From contig JAPLQI010000108.1 of NCBI GenBank assembly GCA_026399755.1, positions 1-56,134 of the forward strand: a stretch of 56,134 nucleotides of DNA, written 5' to 3'. This DNA is from Pseudomonadota bacterium. GTDB lineage: Bacteria; Pseudomonadota; Gammaproteobacteria; Burkholderiales; Chitinibacteraceae. The notes beneath the pieces were generated by a model, which did no database searches, had not been told where the DNA came from, and saw only the letters and a program-made list of their open reading frames with translations. The position numbers and the translations under genes were made by a program. Numbering within the stretch: position 1 is the stretch's first letter; each line of letters starts with the position of its first letter. Of this stretch, positions 1-56,114 are shown in pieces.

Positions 1-286
1 CGCCAGCAAATTTATATCGCAACTCATCGCACGGGGCTTAAGTCTCCCCTTGAAGCCGCGACACGAGGAATAATCAGACCGGGGTTTCGGTAAAGGGGTA
101 GCGAGGCAGCGAGCGAGCAGCCTTTGCCGCCGGGCTGATTATCCGCAGAGAGGGGCCTTCGTGCTGGTCGGGGCGGCCTTCTTTGCTTACTTTCTTGGCC
201 GTTCAAGAAAGTGAGTCCCCGCGGGGATCCCGCACCTAAATCAACGTGCCGAAGGCACTAAAAAGATGATCACTTCGTAACATCAG
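1..286 (-). repeat. Dispersed structured repeat core, copy A
   Basis: Reverse-strand copy of a core that recurs at 8793, 13329, 26480, 39541 and 41365. Shared landmarks, read on the minus strand, are a GTGCC-TTC-GGCAC hairpin preceded by a T-run, a CTTTCTTG/CAAGAAAG stem, a CACGAAGGCCCC block and a TTCAAGGGGA block. The copy runs off the left edge of the window. The flank reading GATGTTAC before the T-run also occurs in copies B and E. It contains no credible protein. Confidence 0.8.
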
Positions 287-8792: not shown

Positions 8793-9173
8793 CACTAATG
8801 TTACACAGTGCTTATCTTTTTAGTGCCTTCGGCACATTGATTTAGCTGCGGGCGTCCCGCGAATGATATGGTTTTTGTGTGGCCAAGAAACGAAGCCAAG
8901 CCAAGCCACAACACTAATAACACGAAGGCTGCGGTCCAATCCAGTCGGCGGCGGGCGGGATTAGCTGGATGCTCCTTCCCAAGCGATCCCCCGCCCCACT
9001 TATTCGGAGCTTGCGTGTATCAAGGGGGGATTTAAGCCCCATGCCACTCTGAGATACAAACCCTAGTTAGTTAGGTTTTAAAATACTTAAAACCTAACAA
9101 CTTAATTCAAGCCTTGTTTTCCTCCGTGAAACGCCGTGTGTCCAGTGACCTTAGTGGTTCAAGATTTGGGTTT
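8793..9173 (+). repeat. Dispersed structured repeat core, copy B (with long right flank)
   Basis: It begins CTAATGTTACACAGTG, has a T-run and the GTGCC-TTC-GGCAC hairpin, then the CACGAAGG, CGGCGGGCGGGAT and CAAGGGGG blocks. The right flank (about 9060-9173) ends TGGTTCAAGATTTGGGTTT. The same flank closes copy E at 39541-39930, and the end sequence is that of the 51699-51994 element. It fills nearly all of the 428-bp gap between the regulator and kinase genes. Confidence 0.75.
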
Positions 9174-10140: not shown

Positions 10141-10429
10141 TCAACACCGTAAAAACCGTGAAATTCGGCTGATGATGTGCAGAAAAGCACATAGCAATTA
10201 CTTATGTGCCGTACCAATCTAGCGAGACGACCAAACCATGTCAATGGGATCGGCACACGAATGGGCCATTGCTCGATTAAGCGTAAACATTTGTCCACAG
10301 CACGCAGCGCAATAAGCGATAAGCCAATCCCTCTTTCAAGATATAGCTGATTATAAAGAGGCTCCTGCTTAAAAATGGCTCTGTCTGCGTTAAATGTCGA
10401 AACATAGTTAAGTGGATATTTACGCTTTT
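10141..10429. other. Intergenic region without a supported gene
   Basis: It contains a short hairpin-like GTGCAGAAAAGCAC near 10176. A 67-codon minus-strand frame crosses it but shows no recognisable domain and overlaps the kinase promoter. No gene is called. Confidence 0.4.
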
Positions 10430-10508
10430 ATAGGGTGTGCAAGTCGTTTTTCTTGCGCACCGTTTTTGCCATGACGGTGCGTAACGCCTCTGGCGTTTTG
10501 CACCCTAT
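10430..10508. repeat. REPIN-like unit (ATAGGGTGTGCAAG family)
   Basis: A 79-bp unit opening ATAGGGTGTGCAAGTCG, with internal TTGCGCACCG and CGGTGCGTAACG arms, and closing TTTTGCACCCTAT. The same family appears at 25579-25648 (reverse orientation) and 32798-32868. Confidence 0.7.
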
Positions 10509-13266: not shown

Positions 13267-13718
13267 GTAGGGCGGGTGCAACCCGCCGAGCTTTGCGATG
13301 CAAATACGGAAAACGGCGGGTTGCACCCATATGCGCTAAGCAAAGTCAAAAAGATCTTTTTAGTGCCTTCGGCACGTTGATTTTAGAGCGGTTGGCCACC
13401 GCGGGGACCTTCCTTTATTGAACGGCCAAGAAACGAAGCCAAGCCGCAATCTCAAAGCACGAAGGCCCCTGCTGCGGTCCAATCGAGTCGGCGGCAGGCG
13501 GGATTGGCTCGCTGCCTCGCTCCCAAGCGATCCCCCGCCCCGCTTGTTCCTCGCTCCGGCGTGTTTCAAGGGGATTTTTAAGCCCCATGCAAAGAGCGTG
13601 GTTATTATATTTTTTCGCTGTTTGCTTATGAAAAAACAATTTGGTTAGTGCGTATAAGGTGCAACCCGCCGAGCTTTGCAATGCAAATACGAAAAACGGC
13701 GGGTTGCACCCGCCCTAC
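13267..13718 (+). mobile_element. REP-bounded composite element C
   Basis: It starts GTAGGGCGGGTGCAACCC and ends GGGTTGCACCCGCCCTAC, its exact complement. Inside are two near-identical REP arms of about 50 bp (13280-13328 and 13658-13708) flanking a roughly 330-bp module. That module has inverted ends of its own, ATATGCGCTAAGCAAAG on the left and ATACGCACTAACCAAAT read inward from the right. The module carries the structured core found in copies A and B. No protein is encoded. This looks like a non-autonomous element mobilised by enzymes encoded elsewhere. Confidence 0.7.
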
Positions 13719-18404: not shown

Positions 18405-18436
18405 ACATTTAACCCCGCTGTATTAATTAGTTTTGC

Positions 18437-18560
18437 CAACTATACCCGATTACAATCGGAAGACAATTTTTTGTGTATATATTTATATATATGTCCAAAC
18501 ATATAGGTTGCTTCAATTTCATTAGCATATACTAATGAACCATTCACACAATAAAAATTA
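18437..18560. repeat. Duplicated upstream region, copy 1 (with ATTAG-N6-CTAAT dyad)
   Basis: It starts CAACTATACCCGATTACAATC, continues AGACAATTTTTTGTGT, and contains ATTAGCATATACTAAT at 18521-18536. The same block, roughly 80% identical by eye, lies upstream of the second lipoprotein at 19220-19343. The duplication therefore covers gene plus regulatory region. The 16-bp dyad may be an operator. Confidence 0.7.
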
Positions 18561-18614
18561 ATTATCACATTTCGTGTAAATCAGCATACCGACTCGGGCT
18601 TTTCACATTAAATT

Positions 18615-19179: not shown

Positions 19180-19219
19180 TGTTGATTCACTCAATTTAAA
19201 TGATACGGTTTAGATATCA

Positions 19220-19343
19220 CAACTATACCCGACTCCAATCCAAAGACAATTTTTTATGTCTATGTTTGTATATATTTCCACATATATAGGTTATTTTAAT
19301 TTTATTAGTACATACTAATAAATCATTCACTTAATCAATATTA
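19220..19343. repeat. Duplicated upstream region, copy 2 (with ATTAGTA-CA-TACTAAT dyad)
   Basis: It starts CAACTATACCCGACTCCAATC and contains ATTAGTACATACTAAT at 19304-19319, a nearly perfect 16-bp palindrome. It is the counterpart of 18437-18560. It lies directly upstream of the second lipoprotein on the minus strand. Confidence 0.7.
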
Positions 19344-19366
19344 ATGAGCAATCATGGTTCAGCCCC

Positions 19367-25578: not shown

Positions 25579-25648
25579 ATAGGGGGTACAACGACACAGT
25601 CGGAGCGCAGAAGAACGGTACGCAAGAAAAACGACTTGCACACCCTAT
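25579..25648. repeat. REPIN-like unit (ATAGGG...CCCTAT family, reverse copy)
   Basis: A 70-bp unit opening ATAGGGGGTACAACGAC and closing AAAACGACTTGCACACCCTAT-like ends. It is the reverse-orientation counterpart of 32798-32868 and 10430-10508. With the previous unit it fills most of the 462-bp gap 25408-25869, in which no gene is seen. Confidence 0.65.
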
Positions 25649-25869
25649 GAAAATCAATTTTTTTACTATGTTTTTGCCTTTAGTGATGTACATAAGCAGC
25701 TTTATCACAGAAGCCAAAATGGGAACATCACTCCGGTAGATTCTGCTTTCCCACCATCCTAAAATAATGGCGTAATCTGTCCCAATCTTGGCCGATCAGC
25801 CCATTACCACAAGGCATTGGCTGCTTTAATCTCTGTCTTGTCCAAACACATAAAGCAGAGAAAAAGACC

Positions 25870-26424: not shown

Positions 26425-26784
26425 GTAGGGCGCGGGTGCTTACCCGCGAGCTAGGCTGAAAAGTACGCGGGTTCCATCCCATGTGCGCTAAGCAAAGTCA
26501 AAAAGATCAGTGCCTTCGGCACGTTGATTTAGGTGCGGGCGTCCCGCTGGACCTTCCTTTCTTGTGTGGCCAAGAAACGAAGCCAAAGAAGGCCACCCCA
26601 CGAAACACGAAGGCCCCTGCGCTGCGGACAATCGAGTCGGCGGCGGGCGGCCCCGCTTGTTCCTCGCTCCGGCGTGTTTCAAGGGGATTTTCAAGCCCTA
26701 TGCAGAGAGCGTGATTGTTGTGTTTTTTCGTTGTTTGCTACTAAAAAATATTGCTTAGCGCACATGGTATTTCACCCACCCTAA
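26425..26784 (+). mobile_element. REP-bounded composite element D
   Basis: It starts GTAGGGCGCGGGTGCTTACC, followed by a REP-like arm. The inner module begins CATGTGCGCTAAGCAAAG, and its right end (about 26747-26766), read on the other strand, is CATGTGCGCTAAGCAAT: a near-perfect terminal inverted repeat of about 17 bp. The core has the GTGCCTTCGGCAC hairpin and CACGAAGGCCCC block, but lacks about 35 bp present in copy C. The right REP arm is incomplete (TTTCACCCACCCTAAG). Confidence 0.7.
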
Positions 26785-32735: not shown

Positions 32736-32797
32736 TATATTAGGACGGGTGAAACTCAATTCTAGCAACTTAAGATTAAAACATTGTTGGGTTTTGT

Positions 32798-32868
32798 GTA
32801 GGGTGTGCAAGTCGTTTTTCTTGCGCACCGTTCTTGGTGCGCAACGACTGCGTCGTTGTACACCCTAT
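32798..32868. repeat. REPIN-like unit (GTAGGGTGTGCAAG family)
   Basis: It opens GTAGGGTGTGCAAGTCG, has TTGCGCACCG and GGTGCGCAACG arms and closes TTGTACACCCTAT, about 70 bp in all. The same family is seen at 10430 and 25579. It occupies part of the 318-bp gap between the ABM gene and ohrR; the rest shows no gene. Confidence 0.7.
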
Positions 32869-39484: not shown

Positions 39485-39540
39485 ATGGCCTCACCACCTA
39501 AGCCAACATGGCCAATCAATCCCCCCTTCCCAACACAATA

Positions 39541-39930
39541 ACTGATGTTACACAGTGAACATCTTTTTAGTGCCTTCGGCACGTTGATTTTGGCGCGGTA
39601 TCCCCGCGGGGGACTCCCTTTCTTGAACGGCCAAGAAAGGAAGCAAAACCGCAACCTCAAAGCACGAAGGCCCCTGCGCTGCGGACAATCGAGTCGGCGG
39701 CGGGCGGGATCAGCTCGTTCCTCGCTCCCTGGCCGAAACCCCGCCCCGCTTGTTCCTCGCTCCGGCGTGTTTCAAGGGGAGATTTAAGCCCTATTCCATG
39801 AGCTGCGATACGAATACTAATTACGGGGTTGTAAAATACTCAAAAACTATAAGATAACTGAACTCAAGTCTTGTTTTTCTCGATAAAACTCTGTGCTCTC
39901 TGTGGCCTCCGTATTTCATGATTTGAGGTT
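39541..39930 (+). repeat. Dispersed structured repeat core, copy E (with long right flank)
   Basis: It opens ACTGATGTTACACAGTG and has the T-run, GTGCCTTCGGCAC hairpin, CTTTCTTG/CAAGAAAG stem, CACGAAGGCCCC, CGGCGGGCGGGAT and TTTCAAGGGGAG blocks. The right flank (39790-39930) matches that of copy B at 8793-9173, ending in a decayed form of TTCAAGATTTGGGTT. It lies upstream of pepP. Confidence 0.75.
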
Positions 39931-40035
39931 GCCTGCGTACCATCACACAATAAGTAAAATCCACAAGTAAGTAAAAACACGTGCTGCGCTGCGCCTCGCC
40001 GTATAATCTTGCCTACCTTCTTTGGGAAAGCCACC

Positions 40036-41331
40036 ATGCAGCCTTACGTCACCCGCCGTGCAACCTTGTCCACACGCTTAGCTGCTGGTGTGGTTATTGT
40101 GCCAAATACGACAGAAATCATTCGTAATGCCGATACAACTTATCCATTTCGCTATGATTCCAGTTTTTATTACCTCACTGGTTTTAACGAGCCTGATGCT
40201 GTTTTTGTGCAAGTGATTAGCGAGACAAACACACAAAATATCCTGTTCTGCCGCCCTAAAGATTTAGAGCGCGAAATCTGGGATGGCCACCGCTACGGCC
40301 CTGATGAGGCCCGCGTGCAGTTTGGCTTTGATGCCGCTTATTCCATTGAAGACCTCGACACTAAAATTGTCGAAATCTTACAAAACCAGCCTCGCCTGCA
40401 TACCGTCTATGGCCACAATACAGCGTGGGATAGCCGGGTTTCCGCTTGGGTCAACGGCGTGCGCGCCAAAGTGCGCAGCGGAGTAACCGCCCCAAATGAA
40501 ATCGCCGATGTGCGCGGCACCATCGCCGAAATGCGTTTATTTAAAGATGAGTTTGAAATCGCCCTCTTGCGTAAAGCAGGGCTGATTAACTCGGCCGCCC
40601 ACGTTCGCGCCATGCGCTTTGCCCGGCCTGGGCAAATGGAATACGAAGTAGAAGCTGAAATCCTGCACGATTATTATCGTCAGGGTAGCCGCTTCCCTGC
40701 TTACTCCAGCATTGTGGCTTCGGGTGCTAATGCCACCTGCCTGCATTACGGCGATAATAATCAGCGCATGAACGACGGCGATTTACTGCTGATCGACGCC
40801 GGTTGCGAGATTGGTGGTTATGCGTCGGACATCACCCGCACTTTCCCTGTAAATGGCAAATTCAGCGGCCCACAAAAAGACGTTTACGAAATCACCCTCG
40901 CCGCGCAATATGCCGCACTCGATGTTTGCCGCGCAGGTAAAAGCTGGAATGCGCCACATGAAGCGGCTGTACGTGTATTGGCACAGGGCATGATCGATTT
41001 GGGCTTATTAAACGGCTCGCTCGACGGCGTACTTGAATCACTCAGCTATAAGCAGTTTTATATGCACAACACCGGCCACTGGATGGGCCTGGATGTGCAC
41101 GATGCAGGCGCTTATAAAATCAAAGGCGAATGGCGCAATCTGGAAGCCGGCATGGTGATGACAGTAGAGCCAGGCTTCTACATCCGCCCCGCCGCCAATG
41201 TGCCCAAGCACTTTGAAAACATTGGCGTGCGCATCGAAGACGATGTGCTGATCACCAAGAATGGCATGGAAAACCTAGACGCCAGCTGCCCGAAAACCGT
41301 GGCTGAAATTGAAGCGATTATGGCAAGGTAA
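40036..41331 (+). CDS. Xaa-Pro aminopeptidase PepP
   Basis: A 431-aa cytoplasmic metallopeptidase that removes N-terminal residues preceding proline. The C-terminal pita-bread domain shows the five metal ligands: two Asp in LLIDAGCEIGGYASDITRTF, His in HNTGHWMGLDVHD, and two Glu in MVMTVEPGFY and GVRIEDDVLIT. The N-terminal aminopeptidase-P domain covers about residues 1-170. The start at 40036 is preceded by GGGAAAG; a TTG nine codons upstream is less likely. Gene order pepP-ubiH matches that of enterobacteria, although here a composite repeat separates them. Confidence 0.93.
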   Translation: MQPYVTRRATLSTRLAAGVVIVPNTTEIIRNADTTYPFRYDSSFYYLTGFNEPDAVFVQVISETNTQNILFCRPKDLEREIWDGHRYGPDEARVQFGFDAAYSIEDLDTKIVEILQNQPRLHTVYGHNTAWDSRVSAWVNGVRAKVRSGVTAPNEIADVRGTIAEMRLFKDEFEIALLRKAGLINSAAHVRAMRFARPGQMEYEVEAEILHDYYRQGSRFPAYSSIVASGANATCLHYGDNNQRMNDGDLLLIDAGCEIGGYASDITRTFPVNGKFSGPQKDVYEITLAAQYAALDVCRAGKSWNAPHEAAVRVLAQGMIDLGLLNGSLDGVLESLSYKQFYMHNTGHWMGLDVHDAGAYKIKGEWRNLEAGMVMTVEPGFYIRPAANVPKHFENIGVRIEDDVLITKNGMENLDASCPKTVAEIEAIMAR

Positions 41332-41345
41332 GGGATGTGTTTTTT

Positions 41346-41714
41346 GTATGGCGGGTGAAACCTGCCATACGCCAAGCAAGATCAAAAATATCTTTTTAGT
41401 GCCTTCGGCACGTTTATTTTGGAGCGGTAGCCACCGCGGGGGCCTTCCTTTCTTGCTTCGCCAAGAAACGAAGCCAAAGAAGGCGACCCCACGAAACACG
41501 AAGGCCCCTGCGCTGCGGACAATCGAGGCGGCGGCAGGCGGGATTGGCTCGCTAACTCGCTCCCTGGCCGAAACCCCGCCCCGCTTGTTCCTCGCTCCGG
41601 CGTGTTTCAAGGGGAATTTAAAAAGCCCCATGCAGAGAGCGCAGTCATTACATTTTTTGACTATTTGCTAATAAAAACATTTTTGTTAGCGTGTATGGGG
41701 TTTCACCCACCCTG
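41346..41714 (+). mobile_element. REP-bounded composite element F
   Basis: It starts GTATGGCGGGTGAAACCTGCC and ends GGGGTTTCACCCACCCTGC, which form imperfect inverted ends. The inner module runs from CATACGCCAAGCAAG to TTGTTAGCGTGTATG, again inverted. The core is the fullest in the window, with CACGAAGGCCCC, CTCGCTCCCTGGCCGAAACC and TTTCAAGGGGAA blocks. It separates pepP from ubiH. Confidence 0.65.
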
Positions 41715-51698: not shown

Positions 51699-51994
51699 AA
51701 ACCCAAATCTTGAACCACGGAGGAAAAGGAGGACACGGAGTGCCACAGAGAAAACCTGAGCTTTGTTAAGGAAACTTCAAGGCCGTCATTCCCGAGTGCC
51801 TTTATCAGAGATCCAGCCAAGACACTGGATTCCCGAACAAACGCACTCGGGAATGACGACGTCACGCAGTTTCCAAGGATGGGTAGAACCATTTTGCATA
51901 ACAGCAATAAATAATGGCTTAAGGAAACAAGATTCTGTCTTTCTCCGTGTAACTCCGTGTTCTCTGTGCACTCCGTGGTTCAAGATTTGGGTTT
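51699..51994. mobile_element. 296-bp element with 22-bp terminal inverted repeats
   Basis: The left end reads AAACCCAAATCTTGAACCAC and continues GGAG. The right end, read on the other strand, has the same bases: a perfect 22-bp inverted repeat, followed on both sides by related ACACGGAG stretches. Inside lies a second inverted repeat (about 51785-51860) with GTCATTCCCGAGTGC and GCACTCGGGAATGAC arms. There is no protein. Single ends of this element occur at 17061 and at the right ends of the repeats at 8793 and 39541. Confidence 0.7.
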
Positions 51995-55999: not shown

Positions 56000-56114
56000 G
56001 TCTGGCAATGACCTACTTTCACACAGGTAATCTGCACTATCATCGGCGCTAAGGTGTTTCACTGTCCTGTTCGGGATGGGAAGGAGTGGGACCACCTCGC
56101 TATGGTCGCCAGAC
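56000..56114 (-). rRNA. 5S ribosomal RNA
   Basis: On the minus strand GTCTGGCGACCATAGCGAGG starts the molecule and ATTGCCAGAC closes it. Internal GGTCCCAC, CCCATCCCGAAC, AGTGAAAC and TAGCGCCGATG blocks are the conserved 5S helices and loops. The 115-nt length is normal. It is the distal end of an rrn operon whose 23S and 16S genes lie beyond the right edge; 20 bp of spacer is present. Confidence 0.95.

Follow-up and report, generated by a model that had tools for sequence, protein, structure and literature searches.

A proposed MITE-like, REP-targeted carrier of a structured element

Several insertion sequences are known to insert in REPs, among them ISRm22, ISPsy8, ISPa11, ISPpu9/10, and ISRm19 (Tobes and Pareja 2006, PMC1525189). 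In the sections of that article devoted to them, these elements share a fixed insertion point within the REP, are flanked by direct repeats in most cases (6 bp for ISRm22, none for ISPa11), contain transposase genes, and are present in 4 to 9 copies where a number is stated (PMC1525189). Bacterial MITEs such as NEMIS, ERIC, and RUP, as outlined in parts of two further articles, are small, gene-less, and mostly intergenic elements of high copy number, with terminal inverted repeats (TIRs) and a duplicated target, features that the elements described here share (PMC3733652, PMC10969869). A third system is that of REPINs and RAYTs, to which the present locus is alike in that its flanking ~60-bp units are GTAG REP pairs and in that the genome contains a RAYT-like gene (PMC3733652, in the part concerned).

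Elements in the window and copies elsewhere

The window is the whole stretch of DNA analyzed, 56,134 nucleotides long. A sequence-only reading had placed three elements, C, D, and F, at 13267-13718, 26425-26784, and 41346-41714, and all three are present there. Their outer ends are REP sequence, as it had proposed, and of the GTAG type, although degenerate at both flanks of F and at the right flank of D; the internal inverted repeat that it described, ATATGCGCTAAGCAAA / TTTGCTTAGCGCGTAT, was found with mismatches; and the REP arms of C, which it considered nearly identical, have 96% identity over 54 nt (13275-13328 and 13658-13711). A single ~330-bp module with the ends CCATATGCGCTAAGC...GCTTAGCGCATATGG is repeated in C, D, and F, each time inside GTAG-type REPs. 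No transposase gene is present in the modules; a 120-aa open reading frame (ORF) spanning F (41309-41671) starts within the upstream ORF 40009-41331. The shared core of ~215 nt is also found in elements with other ends, and three more such core copies, overlooked in the earlier reading, lie in the window at 8-284 on the minus strand, 8797-9063, and 39542-39945. We call C, D, and F a MITE-like, REP-targeted carrier of a structured element. The features are as follows.

8-284, minus strand: core of a third type-2 element, left end AACTGATGTTACG, truncated by the window edge
8797-9063, plus strand: core of a second type-2 element (element span noted to 9173)
13267-13327, plus strand: left flank of C, a GTAG-REPIN without its last bases, final 9-mer GGTTGCACC at 13319-13327
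13328-13657, plus strand: type-1 module of C with terminal inverted repeats
13414-13446, plus strand: predicted fold in the core of C, S1 TTTATTG/CAAGAAA (one mismatch), loop AACGGC, downstream S2 partner GCCG at 13443-13446
13658-13718, plus strand: right flank of C, a second REPIN without its first bases
26425-26478, plus strand: left flank of D, a REPIN orthologous to the bare REPIN of genome G008, final 9-mer GGTTCCATC
26479-26767, plus strand: type-1 module of D
26558-26596, plus strand: predicted core pseudoknot of D, S1 26558-26564/26571-26577, loop TGTGGC, mirror strand CAAAGAA at 26584-26590, S2 partner GGCCAC at 26591-26596
26768-26784, plus strand: right REP remnant of D, second diverged copy of the 9-mer
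39542-39945, plus strand: type-2 element sharing the core, left end CTGATGTTACACAG, degenerate right end, CACAATAA on either side (39534-39541 and 39946-39953), empty site in G008
41346-41366, plus strand: left REP remnant of F, GGTGAAACC at 41354-41362
41367-41698, plus strand: type-1 module of F
41449-41486, plus strand: predicted core pseudoknot of F, S1 41449-41455/41462-41468, loop CTTCGC, mirror strand CAAAGAA at 41475-41481, S2 partner GGCGA at 41482-41486
41699-41714, plus strand: right REP remnant of F, GGTTTCACC at 41699-41707

Other repeats in the window are a further palindromic repeat, TATAGGGTGTGCAAGTCGTTTTTCTTGCGCACC, at 10426-10468, 25611-25652, and 32794-32836, and a 141-nt direct repeat at 18427-18567 and 19210-19350, with 79% identity and the copies 783 bp apart.

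The mobile-element reading was to fail if copies occurred in this window only; core copies are in fact dispersed through the genome of origin (G000) and its relatives. A 27-nt core motif, allowing up to 3 mismatches, occurs at 130 places in G000, and its reversed-pattern control at none. A core profile gave 40 matches, a few of them fragmentary, in 856,134 sampled bases of the same genome, which would extrapolate to ~230 genome-wide. Genomes G000 to G008 are labelled as one genus, probably Iodobacter, and core matches are present in all eight relatives (with 14 candidates scored, each genome has 17 to 27 matches to the query region, a tally that takes in the flank genes). A search of PLSDB with element C matched one plasmid, NZ_CP025783.1 of Iodobacter fluviatilis (76,766 bases); a phage search with element F gave no match.

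Beyond the genus, model R1 matched 64 of the 250 genomes sampled from the order, which cover 39 of 121 genera, and model R2 matched 83 of 369 genomes of the class at an E value of 1e-5 or better (66 of 272 genera), the own genome being included in both. Of those 83 genomes, 80 are labelled as the same class and not the same order. Both models contain the consensus loop strand, and their matches are therefore drawn towards it; the core of F is itself matched by R2 (G000:C13:41442-41490). Named hosts among the matches listed (exact pattern, 80 of at least 120 stretches) include Deefgea, Formivibrio, Andreprevotia, Crenobacter, and Pseudorhodoferax, together with Herbaspirillum, Paucibacter, Roseateles, Undibacterium, Azonexus, and Thiobacillus. 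At the Rfam gathering score the window gave 5S rRNA alone, the gene for which lies at the window edge (56000-56113, minus strand), and a permissive Rfam search of seven loci and element C gave no core match at gathering score. The best weak match covering a core was RF01681 (Pseudomonas sRNA P4) at locus L157, with 19.3 bits against a gathering score of 37; this is too weak for identity with P4, and the match is absent from the six other loci and the window element. In the open-access texts searched, no description was recognized as this element, and the core is apparently a structured element new to description.

End types were assigned in 100 distinct copies with enough flank, taken from 142 matches before filters (overlapping loci included). 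A loose classifier, allowing up to 6 mismatches, scored 59 copies as L1R1, 14 as L1R2, 7 as L2R2, 2 as L2R1, and 18 as unclear; 40 of the 59 type-1 pairs have 4 mismatches or fewer. The terminal inverted repeats expected of a MITE are thus of type 1 (CCATATGCGCTAAGCAAA...TTTGCTTAGCGCGTATGG) at both ends of those 59 copies; type-2 ends (CTGATGTTACGCAG...TGCGTAACATCAG, with a ~130-bp tail) were likewise seen, as were hybrids with mixed type-1 and type-2 ends. The tail of the type-2 family reads TTTTTCTCCGTGAAACTCCGTGTTCTCTGTGGTTCAAGATTTGGGTTT. The unit GGTTCAAGATTTGGGTTT is in addition a separate repeat family, found singly or as an inverted pair with no core (window 51699-51994; 46 motif matches in the 856-kb sample). 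A third end type, TGTTCAGATTTGGTGTTGATG, was seen at both ends in 5 of the 10 copies in G066, a genome of the same family and another genus, and in 1 of the 5 Deefgea copies examined; copies with these ends share the core plan.

REP junctions, empty sites, and turnover

The usual REP 9-mer at both flanks of type-1 copies is GGTTTCACC or its reverse complement. Junctions were counted in the 40 type-1 copies in which both TIRs have at most 4 mismatches. Of these, 23 are bordered by two GGTTTCACC-like 9-mers, 3 by two GGTGAAACC-like ones, and 10, C among them, by a mixed pair; the remaining 4 have lost the 9-mer on at least one side. F lies outside this count, one of its TIRs having 5 mismatches, and is mixed by eye. 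Against insertion into the REP, left and right 9-mers are hardly associated once the excess of one form is allowed for: ~22 double-GGTTTCACC copies would be expected among the 36 classed if the sides were independent, and 23 were observed. Co-spread of a composite would give the same 23:3 ratio of double-GGTTTCACC to double-GGTGAAACC copies.

Comparing loci with and without the module, as the earlier reading had advised for finding insertion boundaries, yielded one clean empty REPIN for type 1, at D; it is the only such locus, its 9-mers have diverged, and precise loss could also have produced it. In G008 the orthologous REPIN, GTAAGGCGGGTGCTTACCCGCGAGCAATGCTGAAAAGTACGCGGGTTTCATCGCCCTAC, has no module and holds the 9-mer once, and in G000 the 9-mer is present, diverged, on both sides. 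In a REPIN, two inverted REPs bound a mobile unit and travel with it; at D the REPIN is there without the module. Measured against empty sites, at one locus per type and with registers set by eye, the target duplication is 9 bp with mismatches for type 1 (D) and 8 bp, exact, for type 2. The type-2 site is that of 39542-39945, where CACAATAA is found once at the orthologous empty site of G008 and on both sides in G000; the empty site has no repeat at the junction. No REP is present at the junctions of this element or in the type-3 flanks listed.

Further loci vary. At L081:7119 in G008 and L086:8984 in G002 there is a bare REPIN whose loop class differs from that in G000. G008 has neither module nor REP at L086:18368, which is compatible with co-gain or co-loss, and at L148:12737 G004 is without the module (and REP) that G007 has, the entire spacer being different. 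The orthologue of F in G008 is a degenerate REP-like palindrome and that of C a short one; no GTAG REP was seen in the spacers of G004, G005, and G007 at the C orthologue. The F orthologue in G003 (L123, G003:C1 about 112450-112620) has kept module ends and REP remnants and has lost the core. REPIN loops adjoining modules apparently fall into several classes, in both orientations (by eye). Free REPs are common: the sample has 94 half-sites with 3 mismatches or fewer, and 81 of them lie more than 200 bp from a core.

The REP is most likely the insertion target, with a 9-bp duplication, rather than part of a REPIN that gained a cargo, because a bare orthologous REPIN is found at D, the core occurs with other ends at REP-free junctions, and the REPIN loops look varied. 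The earlier suggestion that the core had entered a REPIN and duplicated it comes nearer to this than does its cargo reading; the usual duplication is, however, ~9 bp and not ~54 bp as in C, where near-whole REPINs on both sides are not explained by a 9-bp duplication. What holds of the earlier reading is a dispersed, mobile-looking module whose core is structured and conserved and whose ends are precise; a "cargo-bearing REPIN" moved whole by a RAYT is not supported.

Ten type-1 loci with the module in both genomes were compared by eye between G000 and G002 and between G004 and G007 (close, 89 to 97% identity in long blocks). The module has the same orientation at six (F, L081:1530, L086:18368, L148:500, L148:18843, and L149:13765) and is inverted at four (D, L081:7119, L149:318, and L149:1782); C lies at contig ends in G002 and was omitted. 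The cores at D are 73% identical, and the inverted cases therefore look like independent arrivals or replacements. Between L148:500 (500-900) and its G007 orthologue, two short internal blocks are swapped and the flanks are nearly identical. The hybrids look similar to the unequal repeats of ISRm22, which have been attributed to recombination between copies (Tobes and Pareja, PMC1525189, in the passage on that element).

A RAYT gene, whose presence the sequence-only reading wished to see checked, has a candidate at L064 1065-2067 (G000 C27): the gene is RAYT-like and has 7 GTAG-REP matches around it, but its Y1_Tnp match, at 21.3 bits, is just under the curated threshold of 23. The L064 locus is probably the REPtron for the REPs serving as targets. 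The transposase search of the own genome gave four Y1_Tnp matches and one broken DDE_Tnp_1 match, and an autonomous partner with type-1 ends was recognized neither in the 856-kb sample nor, via Y1_Tnp and DDE_Tnp_1, genome-wide. End-like matches away from cores in that sample (up to 4 mismatches) number 53 left and 33 right, and the 25 of each listed look like chance by eye. In other genera, no recurrent gene was seen beside the cores among the 12 largest clusters of 793 neighboring ORFs, which by eye resemble housekeeping genes or antisense reading frames; the largest spans 26 loci.

Fold of the core

Structure in the core, which had been noticed as a richness in hairpins, is borne out by folding of the elements (z of -4.4 for F as RNA and -11.2 for C as single-stranded DNA; 100 shuffles each), a large share of the fold of C being its REP arms pairing with each other. 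Applied to 69 copies, global RNAalifold yielded next to nothing (-5.5 and -11.2 kcal/mol), the probable reason being the block-mosaic nature of the alignment, and named helices were then tested. Alignment A1 (56 cores: 52 of the 69 non-redundant copies and four window copies) is a mosaic of alternative blocks, and mutual information therefore mostly showed block linkage.

The first helix, S1, is a hairpin of the form TTTCTTG-loop-CAAGAAA, present in 94 of 100 copies when one substitution per arm is allowed. Its loop varies (AACGGC in 46, CTTCGC in 22, TGTGGC in 12, and others). The three main loops and two downstream contexts make six combinations, and in the commonest form of each the loop is complementary to a downstream strand, the S2 partner. 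A complementary run of at least 5 between loop and partner was found in 66 of 94 copies, versus 28.8 shuffled, and the summed loop complement was 447 versus 375 (1000 shuffles, maximum 397). Alignment A2 holds 41 of 52 cut pieces and 26 pairs; its copies were not selected by S1 or S2 pairing, and its cut anchors contain helix 1. In A2, 92.7% of cells are paired, and double-change cells number 45 versus 18.6 in shuffles. The covariation score is 0.121 versus 0.061, none of 500 shuffles being as high, and slid structures score 0.017 to 0.049. Pairs with a double change number 7 versus 5.1 shuffled, a value reached in 41 of the 500 shuffles, and additional pair types in A2 show no rise over shuffles (15 versus 17.2).

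Model R1 pairs S1 and leaves the downstream partner unpaired. Among 45 R1 matches in other genera, S1 was found in 42, and 40 of these 42 also have an S2 partner that is 4 nt long or longer (shuffled mean, 26.2; maximum, 33; 2000 shuffles). The covariation test that the sequence-only reading called for thus found compensatory changes in the S1/S2 pseudoknot, whose arrangement is H-type. These results place an H-type pseudoknot in the core, with compensatory changes that recur in many related bacteria, which suggests that the fold is important in its own right.

The 7 nt that immediately precede the S2 partner are the reverse, not the complement, of the S1 purine strand, for example AAGAAAA with AAAAGAA, AAAAGAA with AAGAAAA, GAAAGAA with AAGAAAG, and AAGAAGA with AGAAGAA; the mirror is exact in D and F (CAAAGAA with AAGAAAC), and the core of C is a short form without this putative third strand. 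Some loci had been fetched with a pattern fixing part of the loop, and exact-pattern copies were dropped from the main mirror counts: of 220 copies scanned, 112 matched the fetch pattern exactly, and of the 108 left, 73 have strands that differ from their own mirror and so are informative. Among these 73, 47 are exact mirrors, 20 have one mismatch, and 6 have three or more. Mirror mismatches over the 108 copies total 51 versus 202 shuffled (minimum 170; 2000 shuffles). By subset, they are 5 versus 49.5 for R1 loci (33, exact-pattern copies included), 32 versus 107.1 for named loci (58), and 14 versus 20.7 (minimum 16) for Iodobacter (25 rows, most Iodobacter copies failing the scan, which here and in the class-wide count below accepted only copies with all 7 bp of S1 paired and an S2 partner of 4 nt). 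The 98.6% of paired cells in the scanned set is not evidence, because the scan required S1/S2 pairing and the figure is circular. The mirror strand was required in neither mirror count; alignment A5 did require a purine-rich strand (53 of 58 rows). At 15 loci from the class-wide search, of which 14 belong to other orders (own genome left out), the mirror is exact in 18 of 18 copies, including six informative copies that are all 2 mismatches from a direct copy.

An alternative hairpin between the purine loop strand and the pyrimidine strand of the stem is rejected: the loop would have to repeat the purine strand in direct orientation, and none of the 73 informative copies comes within one mismatch of doing so. 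We infer that the mirror strand is loop 3 of the H-type pseudoknot, running back along S1. In a purine-motif triplex, the third strand is expected to have the same base as the purine of each pair, and the purine strand may accordingly lie in the S1 groove as the third strand of a triple helix.

GU cells in helices 1 to 3 number 13 and AC cells 16, which gives no wobble asymmetry and no RNA strand preference, and tandem gene pairs show no gene-strand excess (9 of the 22 copies in the sample and 4 of another 16 lie on the gene strand, 13 of 38 together, with genes taken as ORF guesses). The downstream gene is on the core's strand in only 10 of 33 and 7 of 25 cases (P values of 0.035 and 0.043, uncorrected, genes again being ORF guesses). 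Neither comparison supports a cis-acting UTR role. Core places are mostly intergenic, 9 of 76 core matches overlapping a long ORF.

Proposed explanation, rivals, and known systems

We consider it likely that these are MITE-like TIR elements with a transposase supplied in trans, a REP-targeted 9-bp duplication, later exchange, and a selected structured core. C, D, and F would be non-autonomous, TIR-bounded transposable elements (type 1) whose CCATATGCGCTAAGC ends are recognized by the trans-supplied transposase. Insertion would take place in the palindromic arm of GTAG-type REPs with duplication of the GGTTTCACC 9-mer, as the junctions and the one clean orthologous empty site indicate. Ends and short internal blocks would later be swapped with other copies, by a route that we deduce from the hybrids and swaps seen. 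The conserved part would comprise the pseudoknot core and the purine strand, which mirrors the stem in sequence and may form the triple helix. Roughly one in five of the class genomes sampled has a member of this core family, which within this bacterial family is found with at least three end sets. Selection would act on the single-stranded fold of the core, as RNA or single-stranded DNA, most likely for the element's own mobilization or persistence. Going further, we tentatively suggest as a possibility that the core is the selected heart of a class-wide mobile family, a purine-clamped pseudoknot coevolving in mirror symmetry and read as single-stranded DNA or RNA by the mobilizing enzyme, with lineage-specific ends, one set of which homes to REPs.

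Other explanations share part of this evidence. The module may be the cargo of a composite REPIN, the whole GTAG...module...CTAC unit being excised as single-stranded DNA and spread by a RAYT; the RAYT-like gene amid GTAG REPs in the genome, the REP 9-mers on both sides of 36 of 40 scored type-1 copies, the joint absence of module and REPs at L086:18368 in G008, and the 23:3 excess of one 9-mer arrangement, which fits a founder composite, count in its favor. As the main reading it is rejected in view of the bare orthologous REPIN at D and the core under other ends at REP-free junctions, and the several REPIN loop classes seen by eye beside modules and the inversion of modules between congeners at 4 of 10 compared type-1 loci also make it unlikely. 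Precise ends with short direct repeats in two end types, and a type-2 empty site without a repeat at its junction, speak against an account with little or no present transposition, in which homologous recombination and conversion between cores and between REPs let modules replace bare REPINs. That account would suit the hybrid ends, the inverted modules, the internal block swaps in orthologous copies, and the spacers replaced wholesale between close genomes, and is likewise improbable.

The core might instead be a regulatory or structural RNA acting at host genes, its mobility a relic. Pseudoknot covariation across many genera and the mostly intergenic places (9 of 76 matches in a long ORF) would be in keeping with this, but the strand of neighboring genes is not preferred (13 of 38 tandem sites on the same strand), copy number is very high and variable, and wobble asymmetry is missing, and we regard such a role as very unlikely.

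If MITE-like elements with a trans-supplied transposase and a selected core are the correct explanation, an intergenic repeat that is widespread in many proteobacteria has a fold that is specific and can be tested, and a triple-strand arrangement backed by natural covariation would be unusual for a bacterial repeat. In MITEs, the TIRs are usually the shared part. The elements described here differ in that the interior is common to many genera and the ends differ by element type, and one core under different transposon ends would reverse the usual MITE logic of conserved ends and a free interior. They differ from REPINs in that the REP pairs look like the target and not the mobile unit, which would provide a tangible example of small elements that use REPs as homing sites, one that can be tested in a genus both harmless and culturable. 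Compared with the insertion sequences that insert in REPs, the type-1 elements are gene-less, have repeats of ~9 bp, are present in far more copies, and contain a conserved structured core.
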